The notes beneath the pieces were generated by a model. It was not told where the DNA came from. It made no database searches and worked only from the letters and a program-made list of their open reading frames with translations. This document shows, piece by piece, positions 4,535-34,965 of a stretch of 34,980 bases of DNA. Where the stretch lies: positions 1 to 34,980 of the forward strand of contig JAIUNY010000027.1 of assembly GCA_020161505.1 (NCBI GenBank), in the 5' to 3' direction. Position 1 is the first letter of the stretch. Every line of letters starts with the position of its first letter. The translations under genes were made by a program, and so were the position numbers. The stretch comes from Armatimonadota bacterium. Lineage in GTDB: Bacteria; Armatimonadota; Fimbriimonadia; Fimbriimonadales; Fimbriimonadaceae.

Positions 4535-4672
4535 CCCGCCCCACCTGGCCTTCGGCCACCCTCCCCCAAACGAAGTTTGGAGAGGGCGAGTCCAGGAATC
4601 GTCCCCGGATTCGGACGTAAGTGATCTCAAACAGCCCTGTCGCTGGTGCCCCGATCTCTTGAGAGTCGGAAA
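4535..4672. repeat. Dispersed palindromic repeat, M1 plus linker plus M2
   Basis: M1 reads CTGGCCTTCGGCCACCCT followed by CCCCAAACGAAGTTTGG. A linker resembling the one at 24.1 kb follows (GTGATCTCAAACAG), and then M2 in reverse (GCCCCGATCTCTTGAGAGTC). The same order and spacing recur at 24073-24200 and 27685-27812, so the composite is one mobile or amplified unit and not three coincidences. It lies in the gap between the convergent DUF58 and mdh genes. Confidence 0.8.
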
Positions 4673-10734: not shown

Positions 10735-11421
10735 ATGATCCCGATTCGCGACAACCTCAAAACGCGCGAAATCCCCGTCCTTGTTTGGACGTTGATCGGG
10801 CTGAACGTGCTGATCTACGTGTGGGATCGAGGGGGTGGACTCTTTGGCCCCAACCTCGCGTTTGCCGACCTCGCGATGCGCCCGCGCCAGGTGCTGCTCG
10901 CGCTTTCGCCGAACGGCGACCCGGTGGAGATGGCGAAGATTTTCACCAGCATGTTCCTCCATGGGAGCCTGGCGCATATCATTGGCAACGTTCTTTTCCT
11001 CGCCGCTTTCGGGCCGAGCGTCGAGTCAGCGTTTCGAGGCGGACGGTTCGCGCTCTACTATCTCTTCTGGGGAGTCTGCGCTGCCGCGGCACACATCTAT
11101 GTGAATCCAGGCAGCGATACCCCCACCGTCGGAGCCTCGGGTGCGATTGGAGGAGTTTTGGGGGCGTACTTCTTGCTCTTCCCGGGGAGCCAGATTCGGG
11201 TGGTGATCCCGCCGTTCATCTTCTTGCCCTTCACGGTGACGAGTTGGGTGCTTCTCGGCATGTGGTTTGCGTGGCAGATCATCTTCCCGCAGCCCGGCGT
11301 TGCCAATTGGGCCCACGCGGGGGGATTCCTGGCGGGCATGATCACCGTGCTTGTTCTGGGTGGGCGCGAAAAGGTCTTGCACGGCAGCAAGATCGAGGAG
11401 GACACAGATTTTGAAGATTGA
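10735..11421 (+). CDS. Rhomboid-family intramembrane serine protease
   Basis: 228 residues with about six hydrophobic helices. Catalytic Ser135 is in GASGAIGG and His194 in NWAHAGGFLAG. His76 and His81 and Asn84 (FLHGSLAHIIGNVLFL) supply the oxyanion and structural positions of active rhomboids. The N-terminus MIPIRDNLKTREIPVLVWTL is typical of bacterial rhomboids. It cleaves membrane proteins within or near their helices. It is the first gene of a tightly packed plus-strand cluster, and the next gene starts inside its last codons. A second, inactive rhomboid-like gene lies at 31.7 kb. Confidence 0.92.
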   Translation: MIPIRDNLKTREIPVLVWTLIGLNVLIYVWDRGGGLFGPNLAFADLAMRPRQVLLALSPNGDPVEMAKIFTSMFLHGSLAHIIGNVLFLAAFGPSVESAFRGGRFALYYLFWGVCAAAAHIYVNPGSDTPTVGASGAIGGVLGAYFLLFPGSQIRVVIPPFIFLPFTVTSWVLLGMWFAWQIIFPQPGVANWAHAGGFLAGMITVLVLGGREKVLHGSKIEEDTDFED

Positions 11422-13480
11422 TCGGTTGAATGCGCTCTGGCTCAAATTGCTTTGGCCCAGCCTGATCGTGACCGCGATTCTCGCGGGCATCAATCTCATC
11501 CCCCGATGGCAAGCCGAGCAGAGCAATCGCGCGGTTTCCCTCGTTGTCGAGTTCGCCACGGTTCGCGATTTTGCCCTTTCCCAGGGAGTTTCAATTCCCG
11601 ACGCCCTGGACGAGCTCAGCGCGATCGGTGTGACCGCCATTGCCCTCAACGAAAAGACCGCCGGAGACCTGATCTCTTCAGGCCAAGTCTCGGTGACCCC
11701 GTCTCCTCAGACCACCCGAGGGCTGGCGAGCAACGAGTTTCTGATTACAGGGCGGGCAAGCGATCTCGAGTGGATTCAGAGTGCCTATCAGGCGAGAACC
11801 GGTCAAAAACTCCTCCAGAGTGGGCTCAGCGGCGCGGTTCCCCGTCAACGGTTGCTCACCGATGATCCGCAGTTTTTGCGCTCGATCACCCTCGGCATTG
11901 ACCCTGCCGAAGCGAAACTGGTGCGCAATGCCGGATTGCAGATTGTCGGACGAATTGCCAATCCCATCGGCACCAGCCAACGCAGCATCGACTGGAACCT
12001 TAGCGAACTCAAGCGTCATGGAGCCGAGTTCTATCTGCCCCTCGGAGATGCCGTCCTCGGTGACCGTGAGCTCGTCGATCACACAATTCAGAGTCTGGAA
12101 TCGAACGGCCTGACCTACGTCGCGGCGGAGTTCGGCAAAACCAGCGGCGAGAGCAAGATCGTCGGCAAGCTCCAAGATCAAACCGTGCGACTCCATGCGG
12201 CTCAGGCGGCGGAGCTTCAGCGCATGGCTCCGGCGGCGATTGTCGAACGGTATGTCAAGGCAGCGCGCGAGCGGAACATCCGCATGCTTCTGGTTCGCCC
12301 GGCCAGCGCATCGGGCGAAAAGCCGTTGGGAGAGTTCAACAAGCTCCTGCGCGAGATCCGGCAAGGGCTCGAGCACGATGGTCTGACGCTGAAAGCGGCC
12401 CGACCTTTCTCGATGCCCGAGTCGAATTCACTGCTCAAGCTTCTCCTTGGCCTCGCCACTGTTCCAGTGATGGCGTTTGTCGCGAGCCGCCTCTTTTCCC
12501 CGGGCCGCCTTCAGACGGTTGCGGTACTCGGAACAGGCTTACTGGGCCTGGCCACGATCAGCGCCTCGTTCCGTGAATACACCGCGCTTGCCGCCAGCAT
12601 CGCCTTCCCGATTGCCGGATATCTCTGGTGGCTGGAAAAGGATCGCCGCCCGGTGTGGCTTGCCGTCGCCGGGATCTCGCTTTTCAGTTTCGTCGGGGGG
12701 CTTCAGGTTGCGGGGCATCTGACGGGGCTGAAATACATGCTCCACCTCGACATCTTCACCGGCGTGAAACTCTCGGTGTTCCTGCCGATTCTCATCATCG
12801 GCCTGATCCTCGCGTTCCGGTTGAAATCGTGGAAGGAGATCGGCGAGACGCCCGTTCTCTGGGGATCGCTGGTCGCGAGCATTGTCGGGCTGGGCGTGTT
12901 GATGTTCATGAACGCCCGCACTGGCAATGACAATCCTGCGGCGGTGAGTGGACTTGAGCTCCAATTCCGCGACTTACTGGATCGGGTTCTGTTTGTCCGC
13001 CCGCGAACGAAGGAGTTCCTGATCGGACATCCGGCTCTTGTGGTTGGAGCCTGGCTTGCGTGGGTCGCTCACAGCGGGCACCGCCTGGGCATCCCGACCC
13101 TAAAGGGATCGGGGCACCCAAGCGAGGGCGAAGCCACCCAACCTTCAATCGATGCCCTCCCCAAAATCTCCGATTTGGGGGAGGGTGGCCAAGGGCCGGG
13201 AGGGGGTTCGCTCACCACCCAAGCCTTGAGCGAGACACAACGCCAAACCACCATGACCCTGAAGGGATCGGCTTTGAAGCCTGCCGCCTATCTCCTCCTC
13301 GCCATCGGAGCGATCGGGCAGACGAGCATCGTGAACACGATGTGCCACCTCCACACCCCCATCCACCTCAGCGTGGCCCGAATCCTCTCCGGACTCGTGG
13401 CGGGATGTATACTCGGCCTGCTCGTTATTCTTGTGGCGCAGAGGGTCTGGCCGGATCTGCGAGCACGGGGTTCTGAGTAA
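11411..13480 (+). CDS. DUF5693 multi-pass membrane protein carrying an in-frame palindromic repeat
   Basis: About 689 residues from TTG 11411, preceded by GAGGAGG at a spacing of about 8 and overlapping the rhomboid stop by 11 bases. The N-terminal helix (LLWPSLIVTAILAGINLI) leads a large outside domain (about 35-330) with VEFATVRDFALSQG and IGVTAIALNEKTAGDL, the DUF5693 pattern. Helices follow from about residue 340 to the C-terminus (LLKLLLGLATVPVMAFV, YLLLAIGAIGQTSIVNTM, LVAGCILGLLVILVAQRVW). DUF5693 genes are commonly next to csaB, as here, so a role in cell-wall polymer pyruvylation is inferred. Residues about 560-622 are translated from the repeat at 13088-13275 (LPKISDLGEGGQGPGGG). They lie between two helices and look foreign to the family. 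Confidence 0.88.
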   Translation: MKIDRLNALWLKLLWPSLIVTAILAGINLIPRWQAEQSNRAVSLVVEFATVRDFALSQGVSIPDALDELSAIGVTAIALNEKTAGDLISSGQVSVTPSPQTTRGLASNEFLITGRASDLEWIQSAYQARTGQKLLQSGLSGAVPRQRLLTDDPQFLRSITLGIDPAEAKLVRNAGLQIVGRIANPIGTSQRSIDWNLSELKRHGAEFYLPLGDAVLGDRELVDHTIQSLESNGLTYVAAEFGKTSGESKIVGKLQDQTVRLHAAQAAELQRMAPAAIVERYVKAARERNIRMLLVRPASASGEKPLGEFNKLLREIRQGLEHDGLTLKAARPFSMPESNSLLKLLLGLATVPVMAFVASRLFSPGRLQTVAVLGTGLLGLATISASFREYTALAASIAFPIAGYLWWLEKDRRPVWLAVAGISLFSFVGGLQVAGHLTGLKYMLHLDIFTGVKLSVFLPILIIGLILAFRLKSWKEIGETPVLWGSLVASIVGLGVLMFMNARTGNDNPAAVSGLELQFRDLLDRVLFVRPRTKEFLIGHPALVVGAWLAWVAHSGHRLGIPTLKGSGHPSEGEATQPSIDALPKISDLGEGGQGPGGGSLTTQALSETQRQTTMTLKGSALKPAAYLLLAIGAIGQTSIVNTMCHLHTPIHLSVARILSGLVAGCILGLLVILVAQRVWPDLRARGSE
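13088..13275. repeat. Dispersed palindromic repeat (M2-M1-M2) inside the DUF5693 gene
   Basis: M2 CCCGACCCTAAAGGGATCGG begins at 13094. M1 has a 14-base inverted repeat with one mismatch (13155-13168 and 13172-13185; loop TCC) followed by GGTGGCCAAGGGCCGGGAGG. A partial M2 (ACCCTGAAGGGATCGG) follows at 13256. The block stays in frame without a stop and adds about 60 residues. Confidence 0.85.
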
Positions 13481-14548
13481 ATGGCAAAGCTGCTCTTGGC
13501 GGGATATTTTGGGTCGGGCAATCTGGGGGACGATGCCATCCTGCGCGGATTTGTCAGCGCGATCCCCGATGACTATAAGTTCCGCGTGATCTGCGGCAAC
13601 CCCGAGAAGCTCAACCGGCTCCACGGTTACAGCGGTGTCGGCAAAACCGATCTCGCCAAAGTCCGAGAAGCCATCGCCGAATGCGATGCCCTCGTTTTCC
13701 CGGGTGGGAGCATCTTCCAAGATGTCACGAGCGTGCGGAGTGTCGCTTACTACTCCTCCCTCGTAAAGGATGCCAAGAAGGCGGGCAAAAAAGTCATCAT
13801 GCTGGGGCAGGGGGTTGGCCCCCTCAATCGATTTATGGGCAAGCGCTTTGCTGCTTCCGCCTTCCAATCGGCCGACCTGATCTGCGTTCGTGACGCCGCC
13901 TCGGTCGGAGCCCTCAAGGAACTCGGCATCAAGGGCGTACCCAAAGTGACCGCCGACAATGCTTTCCTCCTTCCCGAGCCTCCGCGCAGCGAAGAATCCA
14001 GCAGCTTCGGCGTGGCCGGCATGAAGACGATCGGCGTCTCGGCACGGCCCTTTGGGAAGGATAAAAGCAAGGCCGTCATCAAGACCTTCGCCGAGTTCGT
14101 GAAGTTGCTTTCAAACAACGGCTACGTGCCGGTGATGCTCGCCCTCGATGAAGCGGAAGACGCGCGCATCATTCAAGAGATCGCCAAAGTTCATGGCGGA
14201 AAGGTGCCGGAACTCAAGGGTGTTTCCAACCCGATCCAAATGCAGGAGCGCATCTCGCGAATGGAAGCCGTGGTGGCGATGCGGCTCCATGCCGGAATCC
14301 TCGCGACGACGGTGGGTGTTCCCAGTTACATGGTGAGCTACGATCCGAAAGTCACGGCTTTTGCGAACTCTCTCGGCTATGCAAGCCCTCCAAGTATCCA
14401 GGGGTTGACGGCGGATCGGTTGTTCAATGGGTTCCAAACATTCATCAAAGATCGGGAGCGCACGGCGACGGCGATTCGGGCAAAGCGCGAGGAACTCGCC
14501 AAGGCCGCTTACGCCAACATCGACGCCCTGCGTGCCTGCCTTGAGTAG
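13481..14548 (+). CDS. csaB: Polysaccharide pyruvyl transferase CsaB
   Basis: 355 residues starting immediately after the DUF5693 stop codon (TAA then ATG), so the two are translationally coupled. Signature stretches are LAGYFGSGNLGDDAIL near the N-terminus, ALVFPGGSIFQD, VIMLGQGVGPLNRFMG, and the C-terminal AVVAMRLHAGILATTVGVP followed by SYDPKV. CsaB adds ketal pyruvate to a cell-wall polysaccharide, which then binds SLH-domain surface proteins. Length is typical (about 350-370). In this diderm context it suggests SLH-mediated attachment of outer-membrane or surface-layer proteins. The next gene starts inside its last codons. Confidence 0.93.
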   Translation: MAKLLLAGYFGSGNLGDDAILRGFVSAIPDDYKFRVICGNPEKLNRLHGYSGVGKTDLAKVREAIAECDALVFPGGSIFQDVTSVRSVAYYSSLVKDAKKAGKKVIMLGQGVGPLNRFMGKRFAASAFQSADLICVRDAASVGALKELGIKGVPKVTADNAFLLPEPPRSEESSSFGVAGMKTIGVSARPFGKDKSKAVIKTFAEFVKLLSNNGYVPVMLALDEAEDARIIQEIAKVHGGKVPELKGVSNPIQMQERISRMEAVVAMRLHAGILATTVGVPSYMVSYDPKVTAFANSLGYASPPSIQGLTADRLFNGFQTFIKDRERTATAIRAKREELAKAAYANIDALRACLE

Positions 14549-17474
14549 GAATGTGATCCGATTCGGCCTGGCGGCGTGGCTGCTGGGCGGGTCAGTTGCC
14601 TTTGGGTTCTCGGTCTCGCCTGCTCTAAGGTCCTCTGGAGCTGAGGTTGGGTCGACGGGTATTTGGTCAGAGTTGGGTGGTGTTTTGCCCCTCCCGGCCT
14701 TTGGCCACCCTCCCCGAGTCAAGCTCGGAGAGGGCGAGATCTGGGGGTTGGGTGGTGACGCAGGTGCTTTTCTCCCAATCGACACCCCATCAGAATTGGT
14801 TCTCGCGACCCTGGGAACCGGGGGTCAAATTGCCGATTCTCGCCCTCTCCAAACTTCGTTTCGGGAGGGTGGTCAAAGGCCGGGAGGGGCTGACTCTCCC
14901 CCTGCTCCCGAATCCATCACCCCGACCCCAAAAGGAACAGAACACCCGAGCGGGCAAGAAACAGCCCCGCCTCCCAGAGTCGAAAACCTCCCCGACCGAA
15001 AGCCTTCCGCCGTGCAGGAATTCCGGCGATGGCTGGACAACACCCTCATCGAACGCACCAAGCTCTTTGGTCAGCGACGCTTGGCTTACTCGTTCCGCCA
15101 AGTCAGCGGCGACCGCACCGCCTACAACACCACCAACTCGGGTGGATTTGGCGACCAAAGCTTCACGAACTTAGGCTATATCCGCGTGGAGAGCCGAGGC
15201 ATCTATGGCTGGTTGAACCTGGACGCCAACCTCCAGGACGCCCGATTCGAAGATCCGCAAATCGCTCGCTACCGCCTGTTCACCGATCGCGGGAAATGGA
15301 ACGGTCAGCTGGGAGATGTCAACGCCCGATTGCCGAGCACCAACCGCTTCATCCAGTACGGGCGGAGCGTCAATGGGCTCCAGCTGGGGTACCGATCCGG
15401 AGGGCTGGAGGTCGGACTCGTCCGCACCAATTCGCGCGGCGAGGCACGGACTGTCACGATCCAAGGCACCAACTCCGCAGGGCCTTACTATCTCCAAAGC
15501 AGCCAAGTTATTCGAGGGAGCGAGCGCATCGAGATTGATGGCATCGCCCAGATTCTTGGTCAGGACTACACGATCGACTACGAAATCGGCTCGATCACCT
15601 TCGTCAATCGACAAACTCTTCAAGCCAAGCTGATTCCTCCGACCAGCACGATTGTCGCGACGTACGAGTCGCTCAACTTTAGTGGCGGAGGCGGCCGAGT
15701 CGAGGGAGGCGTGGTCAACTACAACCTCGGAAGAGGCGGCAAGATTGGGATCACCGGCTTGCGCCAAACCACCGGAGCCAGCGCGGATCTGTCCACTCGT
15801 CTGGAGAAGTTCCAAGGCTTCGGGCCACCATCGACGCCTTACTTCCTCCAATTTGAGCCTCTCGCGACGCAACCGGTTGTGATCCGCGTGGATGGTGTCC
15901 TCCAAACCCAGGGAGTGGACTACACCTTCGACGCCAGCAACCGGGCGATCTTTTACTTCACCCGATTCATGCCCGCGACGAATCAAATCGACGTCCTGTA
16001 CACCCCCAAGCCGACATCCTCCACTTTGGGCGACCGAGAGGTTTTTGGCATTGACTACACACTCAGCTTTGGCAAAGGCTCCAGCTTGCAGCTGAGTCAA
16101 GCCACCGGTCGCACCACCAACTCTCCGACCCCAAGCTCGGGAACCGCGCGCAGTGCCCGATTCACCTATCAACTCGGCCCATGGTCTGGCACCACCTCAA
16201 CACGTTCGATCCCCAGCACCTTCGTGAGCGTCGAGTCGGCCGGATTCCTCCGAAACGAGGATGCAAGCGACCTCACCCTTCGCCATGCCAGCCGGAAAAA
16301 TGGTGATCTCTCTCTGACCCACCTCAACGCGAGCATCACTCGGTTTACCGGAGCAACTGCCGCCCCGACGCGAACGCGATTCTCCCGTTCGGAGATCAGC
16401 TACGACCTCTCGCGGGAGAACACCAAGGCGTTCCCGATTCGGGTGTCGCTCCTCAGCACAAAATCGCAAGCGGGCACCAGCCGCACAGACGTGGATTCCT
16501 TGAACCTCGAATCCTCCCGCACCTGGGGAGGGCTGCAGATGCGCTTCGGAGCAAGCCAGCAGAAGGTGACGGGAACCCAACCGGCCGACCTTTCGACAGC
16601 ACGGCTCCAAGCAAGCTATTCTCGCAGCCGAGAGTGGCAGTTCACCGCTGGATCCTCGCTCAGCTGGATCAAATCCGGGAGCGATTCTGGTCAGGGCCGC
16701 GAGCTTTCCCTGACCGCCCAGTACAACCCCACCGAGCGATTCAACGCCAGACTGGGCTTCAGCGACAACGATGCGGGCGACCTCAGCAGTCTCGCGGGAA
16801 TCGACACCGGCTACGGCGCCGGATACAACGGCAACGGTTTTTCGTCTGGTGCAGGATCGAGCTTTGGCGTCGGCGCAACCAACGGTCGCAGCCTGAATCT
16901 CTTCGCAAACTGGGAGATGACCGACCGAATCACCGGTCGCCTGAGCGGACTGATCTTCCGGAGTTCCGGCAACTTCAGCTCGAATTCGGAATCGAAATCG
17001 CTGTCCGCTGGCGTCGATGTCGATCTGGGCAAGGGGCACGTTCTCTCGGGCGATCTGAGCACGAGTTCGACAGAATTTCTGGAATCTCCCGTCAGAAGCA
17101 GCGTCACCACCGGCTCTGGATCCATCACCGGATCCTTCGGGAAACTGGGCTACCGGTTCACCGGAACCGCTTTGATGACGGGCGGAACGAGTACCTTTAA
17201 GCAAGATTCCTGGAGCTTCGACCTTGGCCTCGACTACCGCCTCAGCACCCGGGAGAATCTGGGATTGCTCATCAACGCCGGCCGTTTGAGCGGATACCTT
17301 CCCCAAGATGAAGCCGATCTGGCCTTCAGCTATCGGTACCAAATTTGGCAGAATCTCGCTCTCAATGCGAACTACCGATACCGCAACATCCGAAACCGGG
17401 ACGCCACCTTGACTTCGGGTGCTTACCGATCCAACACATTTGACATCGAACTCGGGTTCAATTTCTCTGGCTGA
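14541..17474 (+). CDS. Large outer-membrane beta-barrel-like protein with a repeat-derived N-terminal segment
   Basis: About 977 residues. The start is uncertain: TTG 14541 overlaps the csaB stop; GTG 14532 and GTG 14553 are alternatives. All keep the signal peptide (FGLAAWLLGGSVAFGFS). Residues about 35-150 come from palindromic repeats (PLPAFGHPPRVKLGEGE, REGGQRPGGADSPP) and look disordered. From about residue 158 (VQEFRRWLDNTLIERTKLFG) the chain is beta-rich. It includes strand-turn modules of the type GSERIEIDGIAQ...GQDYTIDYEIGSITF, then RVDGVLQTQGVDYTFDASNR, and many alternating aromatic/Ser/Thr strands ending DIELGFNFSG, with Phe near the C-terminus. This is an outer-membrane barrel design; no named family is recognised. 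It sits between csaB and a lipoprotein gene in the envelope operon. Confidence 0.75.
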   Translation: MSRNVIRFGLAAWLLGGSVAFGFSVSPALRSSGAEVGSTGIWSELGGVLPLPAFGHPPRVKLGEGEIWGLGGDAGAFLPIDTPSELVLATLGTGGQIADSRPLQTSFREGGQRPGGADSPPAPESITPTPKGTEHPSGQETAPPPRVENLPDRKPSAVQEFRRWLDNTLIERTKLFGQRRLAYSFRQVSGDRTAYNTTNSGGFGDQSFTNLGYIRVESRGIYGWLNLDANLQDARFEDPQIARYRLFTDRGKWNGQLGDVNARLPSTNRFIQYGRSVNGLQLGYRSGGLEVGLVRTNSRGEARTVTIQGTNSAGPYYLQSSQVIRGSERIEIDGIAQILGQDYTIDYEIGSITFVNRQTLQAKLIPPTSTIVATYESLNFSGGGGRVEGGVVNYNLGRGGKIGITGLRQTTGASADLSTRLEKFQGFGPPSTPYFLQFEPLATQPVVIRVDGVLQTQGVDYTFDASNRAIFYFTRFMPATNQIDVLYTPKPTSSTLGDREVFGIDYTLSFGKGSSLQLSQATGRTTNSPTPSSGTARSARFTYQLGPWSGTTSTRSIPSTFVSVESAGFLRNEDASDLTLRHASRKNGDLSLTHLNASITRFTGATAAPTRTRFSRSEISYDLSRENTKAFPIRVSLLSTKSQAGTSRTDVDSLNLESSRTWGGLQMRFGASQQKVTGTQPADLSTARLQASYSRSREWQFTAGSSLSWIKSGSDSGQGRELSLTAQYNPTERFNARLGFSDNDAGDLSSLAGIDTGYGAGYNGNGFSSGAGSSFGVGATNGRSLNLFANWEMTDRITGRLSGLIFRSSGNFSSNSESKSLSAGVDVDLGKGHVLSGDLSTSSTEFLESPVRSSVTTGSGSITGSFGKLGYRFTGTALMTGGTSTFKQDSWSFDLGLDYRLSTRENLGLLINAGRLSGYLPQDEADLAFSYRYQIWQNLALNANYRYRNIRNRDATLTSGAYRSNTFDIELGFNFSG
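14687..14965. repeat. Dispersed palindromic repeats (two M1 and two M2-like units) in the beta-barrel gene
   Basis: The first M1 (14690-14740) reads CTCCCGGCCTTTGGCCACCC, then CTCCCCGAG and CTCGGAGAG around AAG-type loop bases. A decayed M2 follows (CGACCCTGGGAACCGGGG, near 14807). A second M1 in the opposite orientation lies at 14840-14890 (CCCTCTCCAAACTTCGTTT, then GGTCAAAGGCCGGGAGGGG). An M2 follows near 14930 (CCCGACCCCAAAAGGAACAG). All are read through in frame. Confidence 0.82.
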
Positions 17475-24005: not shown

Positions 24006-24280
24006 TCCTCCCCCATCCTGGGGGAGGGCAGGGAGGGGGCCGCTCACGCGGAAGCAAGTGCTGATCCCGCCCCTCCCGGCCTTTGGCCACCCTCTCCAAA
24101 CGGAGTTTGGAGAGGGTGGCCAAAGGCCGGGAGTTGACCGCTGGTTCAAAGGTGACGGATCTCAACAAGCAGTAACTGGTTGCCCTGATCCCTTTAGGGT
24201 CGGGATTTCTGGAAGAGCAACCGATCTTCGATTGCGCTCTCTCCGGGGAGGGTGGCCGAAGGCCGCGAGGGGCCGCCTAC
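24006..24280. repeat. Dispersed palindromic repeat cluster, including a perfect 29-bp hairpin
   Basis: Three M1 units occur (24006-24040, 24067-24135, 24235-24280) with one reverse M2 between the last two (GATCCCTTTAGGGTCGGGAT near 24188). The middle unit has arms 24073-24101 and 24105-24133 that are exact 29-base complements around GGA. This block fills most of the 518-base gene-free gap 23910-24427. I see no gene or promoter of note in the rest, apart from GGAGGAAAG just before the NfeD start. It probably also ends transcription of the envelope operon. Confidence 0.88.
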
Positions 24281-25017: not shown

Positions 25018-26304
25018 ATGCTAGATCTCACCAAGTACGCAATGTCCGCCGCGATCGGCGCCGGGGGGCTTCTTGTCCTCCTGGTTCTGATTGCGTGGAT
25101 CGCCAAATCATTTCTCAGGATTGCTCCGCCGAACCAGGTGCTCGTGATCTCGGGTGCCTCGGGGAAGAACCAAGGGGGCCGCGAGGGCTACAAAGTGGTC
25201 TTCGGCGGCCGAGCCTGGAGCTTTCCGATCATCCAAACCGTGAGCACGATGTCGCTCACCACGATGGAAGTGCCGATCGGCGTGCGCAACGCGTACTCCC
25301 AGGGCGGCATTGCCATGAATGTCGAGGCGATTGCCAACGTCAAGATCAGCAGCGATGAGCGGCTGATCGGCAATGCGATTGAGCGATTCCTCAACCGCGA
25401 CACCAACGAAATCCGTCGGGTCGCCAAGGAGACGCTGGAAGGTCACCTCCGGGGCGTTGTCGCGAACCTCACGCCGGAACAGGTGAACGAAGACCGCCTC
25501 ACCTTCGCGGAAAAGCTCGCGAGCGAGATCGAGGGCGACCTCAGCAAGCTGGGTCTGCACCTGGACACGCTCAAGATCCTCCACGTCAGCGACGAAGTCG
25601 GCTACCTCGATGCCACAGGCCGAAAGGCGATTGCGAACATCGTCCGGGAAGCCGAAATCGCGGAATCCGACTGGAAGCGCGATGCCGAGCAAGCCGAGGC
25701 CTCGAACATGGGTCGATCCAATGTGCGACGATCCAATGCAGACACCAAGATCGTGCAGCTGACCAACGACTTGCGCCGGATTCAAGCCGAACTGGAGTCG
25801 AAGATCAACTCGGAAGAAGAGCGCACTCAGGCCGCCGCCCGAGAAGCCCGAGCCACTGCCGAGCACGAGCTCCAAGCCATCCGGGCGGAACTCGAAGGCA
25901 TCCGTCTCCAAGTCGAGCGGGTCATCCCCGCCGAAGCGCGCCGTCAAGCCGAAGAATACAAGGCTCGGGGCCAAGCAGCGGTCATCCGCGAGCGAGGTGC
26001 CGCCGTTGGTCAAGCTCTTGATCTGACCTACGAAGCCTGGAAAGAAGCCGGGCCGAACGCCCGCCAGATCACCCTCATCGAGGGGCTGGAGTCGATTCTT
26101 GCCACCGCCGCCCAAGGCGTGCAAAAGGTCAAGATCGAAAATCTCAGCATGATCGACAGCGGTGACGGCGAGACGCTCAAGAACTACGTCGCGGCGTATC
26201 CCGCGATGCTGGCGAATATCTTCGCTGCCGTCGATGCCACAGTGGGAATCAACATTCCCGACACCATCGCCGGCCGCACGACCTCGAAGGAGGAAACCCG
26301 ATGA
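25018..26304 (+). CDS. Flotillin-like SPFH protein, copy 1
   Basis: 428 residues. An N-terminal membrane segment (AIGAGGLLVLLVLIAWIAKSFL) leads to an SPFH domain (about 35-200), with PNQVLVISG, GVRNAYSQGGIAMNVEAIAN, LEGHLRGVVANLTPEQVNED and LGLHLDTLKILHVSDEVGYL. A long charged coiled coil follows (about 205-330), then a C-terminal part (LDLTYEAWKEAGPNARQITL). This is the flotillin pattern of membrane-microdomain scaffolds (FloA/FloT, YqiK type). It overlaps the next, paralogous gene by 4 bases (ATGA), implying equal production of two subunits. Confidence 0.92.
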   Translation: MLDLTKYAMSAAIGAGGLLVLLVLIAWIAKSFLRIAPPNQVLVISGASGKNQGGREGYKVVFGGRAWSFPIIQTVSTMSLTTMEVPIGVRNAYSQGGIAMNVEAIANVKISSDERLIGNAIERFLNRDTNEIRRVAKETLEGHLRGVVANLTPEQVNEDRLTFAEKLASEIEGDLSKLGLHLDTLKILHVSDEVGYLDATGRKAIANIVREAEIAESDWKRDAEQAEASNMGRSNVRRSNADTKIVQLTNDLRRIQAELESKINSEEERTQAAAREARATAEHELQAIRAELEGIRLQVERVIPAEARRQAEEYKARGQAAVIRERGAAVGQALDLTYEAWKEAGPNARQITLIEGLESILATAAQGVQKVKIENLSMIDSGDGETLKNYVAAYPAMLANIFAAVDATVGINIPDTIAGRTTSKEETR

Positions 26305-27608
26305 TCGAAATCATTTTCATGGTGCTCGGCGCGGTTGCGCTGCTGATTGCTCTGTTCCTGCTGAGCCTCAAGAGCTTGCTCTATCTGTGCCAGCCGAACG
26401 AAGTGATTATCTTCAGTGGCAGCAAGCGACGGGTCGGAAACCGGGTGCTCCCGTACTTCATCGTCCGGGGCGGACGCCGGATGCGCAAGCCGTTCATCGA
26501 GCGCGTGGACCGCATTGATCTCACGAACATGATCATCGAGCTGGAAGCTCGCAACGCCTACACCAAAGGCGGTATTCCGGTTCATGTTCAGGGTGTCGCG
26601 AACGTCAAGATCGCGGGTCACGAGCCGCTTTTGAACAACGCGATTGAGCGCTTCCTCGGCAAAACCCGGGCGGAGATCATGCTGATTGCGAAGTCGACGC
26701 TTGAGGGCTCGCTGCGCGGCGTGCTCGCCACACTGACCCCGGAGCAACTCAACGAAGATCGGAACCTCTTCGCCGAGCGATTGGTCTCGGAGGTTGAGCA
26801 AGACATGACGGCTCTCGGTCTGATTGTGGACACGCTGAAGATTCAGAACATCACGGACGACGTGAAGTACCTGGACTCGATTGGTCGGATCCGCAACGCC
26901 GAGCTGATTTCGGCCAGCCGGATCGCGGAAACCATCGCCCACGCCGACGCAGATGTTCGTCAGGCCGAGAACTACGAGCGCGAGGTGGAATCTCAAATCA
27001 CCGCCAAAATCGCGATCGCTCAAGCCGATGCCGAGAAGCGTCTGGCGGACGCGGTGTCTCGACGCGCCGCGGTGGTTGCGGAAGAAGAAGCTGCGGTTGC
27101 CGCCCTTGTCGCGAAGGCAAAAGCCGACCTGGACGTGCAACAAGCGCGTTTGGAGCAGGTTCGTTTGCAGCTCGAAGCCGACGTCGTTCAACCGGCCAAG
27201 GCGGAGTGCGAGGCCATGGAGCGGATCGCCAAGGCGCAAGTCGCCCCGATCATCGAGGATGGCAAGGCTCGAGCCGATGCCTTCCGCCAGCTGAGCCGAA
27301 GCTGGTCGAACGCCGGCGATCAGGCGCGGGAGATCTTCCTGCTCCAGAAGATCGAGCCGATTATCAAGCAGGTCACGGCAACAATCAGCGACACGAAGAT
27401 CGAGAGGGTCATGGTCATTGATTCGCCGTCCGGCTCCGGAGGAACCGACCCACGCAAGCTGCTGGCACTGAACGAGCAGGTGAAAGAGCTCTTCGGGATT
27501 GATCTCGCGGAGAAGCTTGGGCAACTCGGCGTCCCCGGCCCCAGGGTGGAGGTGTCGGTTCCGACGCGAAGCGTCGAACCTCCACCGGCACCAGGCGATC
27601 CCGACTAA
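26301..27608 (+). CDS. Flotillin-like SPFH protein, copy 2
   Basis: 435 residues, paralogous to the preceding gene. A membrane helix (VLGAVALLIALFLLSLKSLLYL) leads to an SPFH domain with PNEVIIFSG, ARNAYTKGGIPVHVQGVANV, LEGSLRGVLATLTPEQLNED and LGLIVDTLKIQNITDDVKYL. An Ala/Glu-rich coiled coil follows (about 205-330: QADAEKRLADAVSRRAAVVA). The tail differs from copy 1 and ends in a Pro-rich stretch (VEPPPAPGDPD). It probably forms mixed oligomers with copy 1. A strong terminator follows 8 bases after the stop. Confidence 0.92.
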   Translation: MIEIIFMVLGAVALLIALFLLSLKSLLYLCQPNEVIIFSGSKRRVGNRVLPYFIVRGGRRMRKPFIERVDRIDLTNMIIELEARNAYTKGGIPVHVQGVANVKIAGHEPLLNNAIERFLGKTRAEIMLIAKSTLEGSLRGVLATLTPEQLNEDRNLFAERLVSEVEQDMTALGLIVDTLKIQNITDDVKYLDSIGRIRNAELISASRIAETIAHADADVRQAENYEREVESQITAKIAIAQADAEKRLADAVSRRAAVVAEEEAAVAALVAKAKADLDVQQARLEQVRLQLEADVVQPAKAECEAMERIAKAQVAPIIEDGKARADAFRQLSRSWSNAGDQAREIFLLQKIEPIIKQVTATISDTKIERVMVIDSPSGSGGTDPRKLLALNEQVKELFGIDLAEKLGQLGVPGPRVEVSVPTRSVEPPPAPGDPD

Positions 27609-27684: not shown

Positions 27685-27812
27685 GACCCTCCCGGTCGTT
27701 GGCCACCTCCCCGCGTCAAGCTCGGATAGGGCAAGTGCGGGAGTCGTCCGCTCGTGCGAAAGTCATGGAGCCCAAACAGGAGGAACTGGGTTCCCCGATA
27801 CCTTCCGAGCCG
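27685..27812. repeat. Dispersed palindromic repeat, M1 plus linker plus M2 (decayed)
   Basis: M1 reads CCTCCCGGTCGTTGGCCACC then CTCCCCGCGTCAAGCTCGG. The linker AGTCATGGAGCCCAAACAGG matches the linkers at 4.6 and 24.15 kb. A decayed reverse M2 (GGTTCCCCGATACCTTCCGA) ends it. The gap 27609-27899 holds only this and the terminator. Confidence 0.75.
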
Positions 27813-34844: not shown

Positions 34845-34965
34845 CATCTCCGAGCTTGACTCGGGGAGGGTGCCCATGGAGTGAGCCCTTTTCTGTGGAC
34901 ACCGAAGGAGGGGTGAGTTGGGTGTTCATTGGTTTTGGTATTCCTTGAGAAAGGGGATCGGGGCC
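34845..34965. repeat. Dispersed palindromic repeat, M1 and partial M2 at the right end
   Basis: M1 core CTCCGAGCTTGACTCGGGG (34849 onward) followed by AGGGTGCCCATGGAG repeats the 14.7 kb form (CTCCCCGAGTC-AAG-CTCGGAGAG). Near 34951, AAGGGGATCGGGGCC is an M2-like piece. No credible gene is seen in 34719-34980. Confidence 0.65.

Follow-up and report, generated by a model that had tools for sequence, protein, structure and literature searches.

How does a bacterial membrane protein come to carry some 60 residues whose DNA belongs to a repeat with many further copies in the same genome? The question is raised by a DUF5693 gene in the window analyzed here, a stretch of 34,980 nucleotides that constitutes contig C16 of an Armatimonadota assembly of 3.14 Mb (38 contigs, 99.94% complete). 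The gene lies between a rhomboid gene (Pfam) and csaB, which begins immediately past its stop codon. Its start codon is uncertain, the codon-usage model picking TTG at 11411. The encoded protein matches PF18949 with an E-value of 1.1e-121 in two stretches, the longer of which ends at residue 551 (Pfam). The features of the locus are as follows.

About 11411..13480, + strand: DUF5693 membrane-protein gene, host of the insertion (PF18949, codon-usage gene model)
13091..13273, + strand: inserted segment of about 61 codons, missing in 40 of 40 aligned orthologues
13092..13118, + strand: intact M2 REP-like hairpin, TCCCGACCCTAAAGGGATCGGGGCACC, read as IPTLKGSGHP
About 13158..13205, + strand: M1 double hairpin, CTCCCCAAAATCTCCGATTTGGGGGAGGGTGGCCAAGGGCCGGGAGGGG
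About 13252..13272, + strand: second M2, truncated and degenerate, in the same orientation as the first
13481..14548, + strand: csaB (polysaccharide pyruvyl transferase), TIGR03609 above cut-off

The first-pass annotation described a full M2-M1-M2 block, translated as about 60 Gly/Pro-rich residues between two membrane helices. The frame is uninterrupted, with an open stretch of 712 codons that comprises 583 codons 5' of the repeats and 68 codons 3' of the repeats. The translation of the insert, IPTLKGSGHP...TMTLKGSA (predicted peptide, GSGHPSEGEATQPSIDALPK), amounts to about 61 residues, 16 of them glycine or proline, and falls in the interval that separates two predicted helices, 530-554 and 621-644 (residues counted from base 11414), in agreement with that description. 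The first M2 is intact and M1 is present, but the second M2 is a truncated remnant (placed by nhmmer at 13255-13271, E 0.0011) in which 4 of 21 bases deviate from the core, and the block is better written M2-M1-M2' than as a full M2-M1-M2. Because the insert is a mosaic of M2, M1, and a decayed M2, it probably grew or was rearranged over more than one step, and with both M2 copies in the same orientation, one REPIN jump is insufficient as an explanation.

When used as a query, the insert sequence returns 85 matches within its own genome, far above chance. Read from its foot, M2 is GGTGCCCCGATCCCTTYAGGGTCGGGA, a 27-nt hairpin whose foot is unpaired, whose stem contains a single-base bulge, and whose loop is short; its folding energy is −13 to −14 kcal/mol. 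The foot, GGTGC, is ≈75 to 95% conserved at each base. With up to three mismatches allowed, the M2 pattern has 72 copies in the source genome. It is absent from 60 relatives, and a reversed control pattern has no match. The window itself contains the following further copies.

4542..4670, − strand: intergenic M1-/M2- copy with convergent genes on either side
14690..14887, no strand assigned: intergenic inverted pair of M1, downstream of csaB
24072..24270, no strand assigned: intergenic cluster of M1-/M1+ (a perfect 29-bp inverted repeat), M2-, and M1+
27688..27731, − strand: intergenic M1 copy
34846..34876, + strand: partial M1 copy

The window also holds a 108-nt direct repeat (25285-25392 and 26550-26657, 70% identity) in neighboring genes that are probably paralogues. 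We surveyed the habitat of the repeats in 52 stretches (304 kb) of the source genome, each chosen for the copies it holds, using the codon-usage gene model, and found 57 clusters: 31 between convergent genes, 17 between tandem genes, one between divergent genes, three intragenic, two over a gene start, and three at stretch ends, where they have no neighbor gene, which leaves 49 classifiable intergenic sites. Element-free gene pairs in the same stretches are 18 convergent, 138 tandem, and 38 divergent, relative to which M2 is strongly enriched at convergent sites (Fisher p 2e-14). Neighboring M2 copies form 13 inverted pairs whose GGTG foot points outward (-+), no inverted pair with the foot inward (+-), and 11 tandem pairs; the inverted pairs are mostly 42 to 106 nt apart. 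At six loci (L039, L041, L042, L043, L046, and L048), M2 recurs with a periodicity of ≈310 nt in composites of five to six hairpins. The composite hairpins beside M2 include M1 forms, CTCGGTTGGGC/GCCCAATCGAG, GGGCC/GGCCC, and GAATCCTC/GAGGATTC. For M1, compensatory pairing cells number 25 compared with 7.9 in shuffles, but this covariation evidence is only suggestive because sliding the partner by one column yields similar counts. Rfam returned only microRNA hairpin models, far under their gathering scores; with a perfect inverted repeat as the target, we took these matches as chance.

We compared the DUF5693 protein with those of 60 relatives, the named ones of which belong to the Fimbriimonadaceae or Armatimonadota, and obtained matches in 59 of them. 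Most orthologues match in two blocks, residues ≈13-550 and ≈617-680, with next to nothing between; in nearly all relatives, the first block stops near residue 550 and the second starts at about residue 615-630. An alignment of 40 orthologues, seven of them congeneric, covers the genus, family, and order, and opposite residues 560-622 the orthologues have a clean gap, just where the first-pass annotation had predicted one for an insertion, with a short loop in its place. Within this alignment, the segment of ≈61 residues is unique to the source genome, and a homologous, conserved segment is found in none of the 40 orthologues. In the closest congener, 38 residues separate the GHP proline from the VVN asparagine (alignment read by eye); the source protein has 101 residues over the same interval, P540 to N641. 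Judged from these alignments, the segment is a clean, lineage-specific, in-frame insertion, and the original proposal of a palindromic repeat inserted in frame in DUF5693 holds, given the open frame and the 40 orthologues that lack the segment. That the segment is instead an ancient part of DUF5693, kept in the source species and lost or diverged in the others, would be in keeping with loops that differ by several residues among relatives, but it is in effect already refuted by those 40 orthologues across genus, family, and order and by the nature of its DNA, a multi-copy repeat whose M2 is absent from all 60 relatives.

Two further genes of the source genome carry in-frame copies.

L061:1862-3070, contig C10: cysteine-desulfurase-like gene that holds an inverted M2 pair in frame
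L111:2014-2919, contig C7: nucleotidyltransferase gene with a single in-frame decayed M2

The desulfurase insert is a whole REPIN of ≈46 amino acids, with the conserved motifs NETG and D(A)TQ on either side, and the nucleotidyltransferase insert contributes ≈18 amino acids that include GIPTLKASGHP. Orthologues lack both inserts, which brings the in-frame genic insertions to three genes in total. We rejected as genes the long open frames across repeats in L108, L055, L072, L049, L063, L070, and L069, which have no Pfam match, and rejected as genic insertions the repeats in L042, L043, and L045, which are found at the ends of genes or antisense to the gene model. Six further bulge-less copies were checked and yielded no clear genic insertion. 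The recurrence of the pattern in two more genes also bears on whether the DUF5693 insertion could be an artefact of assembly or binning, with collapsed repeats joining unrelated stretches. The assembly is in 38 contigs, some of which end in or near repeats, but both flanks of the insert belong to one DUF5693 domain, the frame and order are kept, and csaB follows directly 3'. We regard such an artefact as very improbable.

In the AlphaFold2 (AF2) model of the DUF5693 protein, the mean pLDDT is 86 and both flanking helices are confident, and residues 557-616 mostly fall below 50. As modeled, the insert is a floppy, disordered loop that joins two confident helices. The desulfurase model is similar, with pLDDT below 50 at residues 147-192, which correspond to its insert, and the inserts of both modeled proteins are thus mostly below 50 within otherwise well-folded structures. 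Could the segment have been co-opted as a linker or, at the mRNA level, as a regulator of translation? In favor of this, the reading frame is unbroken and the RNA could fold strongly (MFE −77 kcal/mol over 187 nt). The predicted disorder speaks against it, however, and the occurrence of inserts with differing repeat arrangements in three unrelated proteins points to tolerance rather than to a shared function; we consider co-option improbable. A special stop-free coding property of the element was also considered and rejected. Over 183 nt, M2-bounded DNA has 1.65 stop-free frames per six compared with 1.38 in other intergenic DNA, which is little difference. With stop-free frames near the intergenic level, no special coding design is needed, and we claim no coding adaptation.

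What, then, moved the repeat? The candidate mover is a REP-associated tyrosine transposase (RAYT), as in REPIN/RAYT systems. The source genome contains no RAYT above the curated cut-off of the NCBIfam model and has no match to Y1_Tnp (Pfam), a family found in 40 of the 61 genomes searched, and the RAYT protein of congener G004 finds no match in it when used as a query. The NCBIfam RAYT model does detect a diverged RAYT-like gene in the source genome at C23:52443-52940, with a score of 35 bits where the cut-off is 80. This gene is without an HUH motif, has a dnaK-like gene just downstream, and is also present in six congeners (seven genus members including the source; L144:2443-2940 and L145-L150). 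Its product looks like a domesticated transposase. Two congeners, G002 and G004, encode a 181-amino-acid protein that passes the NCBIfam REP_Tyr_transpos model, and hairpins such as GTGCCCCTACCTTTTGAAAGAAAGGTAGGG stand on both sides of the gene with the foot GTGCCCCKACC, as in M2. A pattern spanning M2 and these REPs, GTGCCCCKAYC...GRTMGGG, matches 51 times in the source genome, 16 times in G002, and 11 times in G004, with no matches in the remaining five congeners and none for the reversed control. Because REPs with the shared foot flank the RAYT gene in G002 and G004, a RAYT of this type plausibly has M2 as its REP. A second RAYT type occurs in G002, G004, and G006 (L113, L114, and L117), flanked by different REPs (GGTGGCACTGG...CCAGTGC and GGTGGCATTGGTC...GACCAATG) that have the GGTG start of the foot in common. 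The RAYT of the source genome may have been lost, or it may be hidden in an assembly gap because several contigs start in or near repeats (C13:1-53, C31:246-352, C28:237-335, and C3:130-182); breaks in the assembly are probably due to the repeats, and genes such as a RAYT may be concealed there.

The element could also be of the Rickettsia palindromic element (RPE) or MITE kind, with a mover other than a RAYT. The lack of a catalytic RAYT in the source genome, the RPE-like insertion into coding genes, and composites spaced at ≈310 nt, whose five to six hairpins exceed simple REPs in size, are all compatible with this explanation. The sites between convergent genes, the inverted pairs with the foot outward, and the foot common to M2 and the REPs beside congener RAYTs argue against it, and we consider it unlikely, if worth keeping in mind. 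Also unlikely is that the M2/M1 REPs copy without a catalytic RAYT of their own, driven in trans or by the HUH-less protein encoded upstream of dnaK, and sometimes donate disordered segments to proteins.

We are confident that a REP-type composite was inserted in DUF5693, its M2 most likely having been spread by a RAYT. The composite would have entered the gene after the species split from the sampled congeners, and with a net length that is a multiple of three and a stop-free frame, it would be retained in the protein as ≈61 residues. As a loop between two membrane helices, it is probably neutral for the protein. As a GTGC-footed REP, M2 would most likely have spread on single-stranded hairpins through the action of a RAYT, in the manner of REPIN/RAYT systems. 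Most copies would persist downstream of genes, where they are harmless, and the rare copies that are in frame and stop-free in surface or inter-helix loops would persist inside genes. Taken with their clean orthologue gaps, the three genes indicate that protein segments are gained from REP-type repeats in Armatimonadota. Within the genus, moreover, REPs that have a detectable RAYT can be compared with REPs that lack one, and the need for a RAYT in the spread and upkeep of REPs becomes testable there.

The resemblance to RPEs (reviewed in PMC2229807 and PMC10969869) noted in the first-pass annotation applies to the outcome rather than to the family. Compared by description, both are palindromic repeats found in frame in unrelated protein genes, in loops in the present case, and apparently tolerated. 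The M2 hairpin and foot are different, however, and only three of 57 clusters are intragenic in the source genome, compared with nearly half for RPEs (PMC10969869). ERIC and other intragenic bacterial MITEs (PMC2229807) are likewise non-autonomous, palindromic, and sometimes fused in frame to genes, but by description they are shorter than 200 bp and, in most cases, have TA ends and target duplications; we identified no such features for the M2 element.

The element fits the REP, BIME, and REPIN repeats better. M2 shares with them an imperfect hairpin of 20 to 40 nt with an unpaired, conserved foot at one end and many copies (PMC3733652, PMC3116915, PMC2817692). Like theirs, its sites are mostly between convergent or tandem genes and its inverted pairs have their feet outward, habits described in PMC3733652 and PMC3116915. 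Also in common are a species-specific sequence, occasional in-frame intragenic copies, and REPtrons that may be lost. It differs from the GTAG and CGTC REPs in its GGTGC foot, from REP/RAYT systems in that no catalytic RAYT was found in the source genome, and from simple REPs in that M2 often lies within multi-hairpin composites of ≈310 nt that carry a second repeat, M1. The GTAG/CGTC tag defines two superfamilies and not all REPs; some GTAG families have the foot variants GTRG and GTGG, with GTGC not reported, and Armatimonadota are absent from the phyla listed for the GTAG and CGTC families (PMC3733652). Our literature searches found no earlier description of the GGTGC foot or of M1/M2 composites, and none of Armatimonadota repeats. 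The survey of the GTAG and CGTC families describes how many E. coli strains have lost the RAYT, treats RPE-4 and RPE-6 as CGTC REPs, and reports several species with REPs wholly within ORFs and intragenic REP clusters that encode 43 to 82 amino acids (PMC3733652). In-frame REP insertion is therefore already published, and the phenomenon is known from Rickettsia and other bacteria; the DUF5693 gene is not a new kind of event but a clear example of it, and a clean new case from the Armatimonadota.
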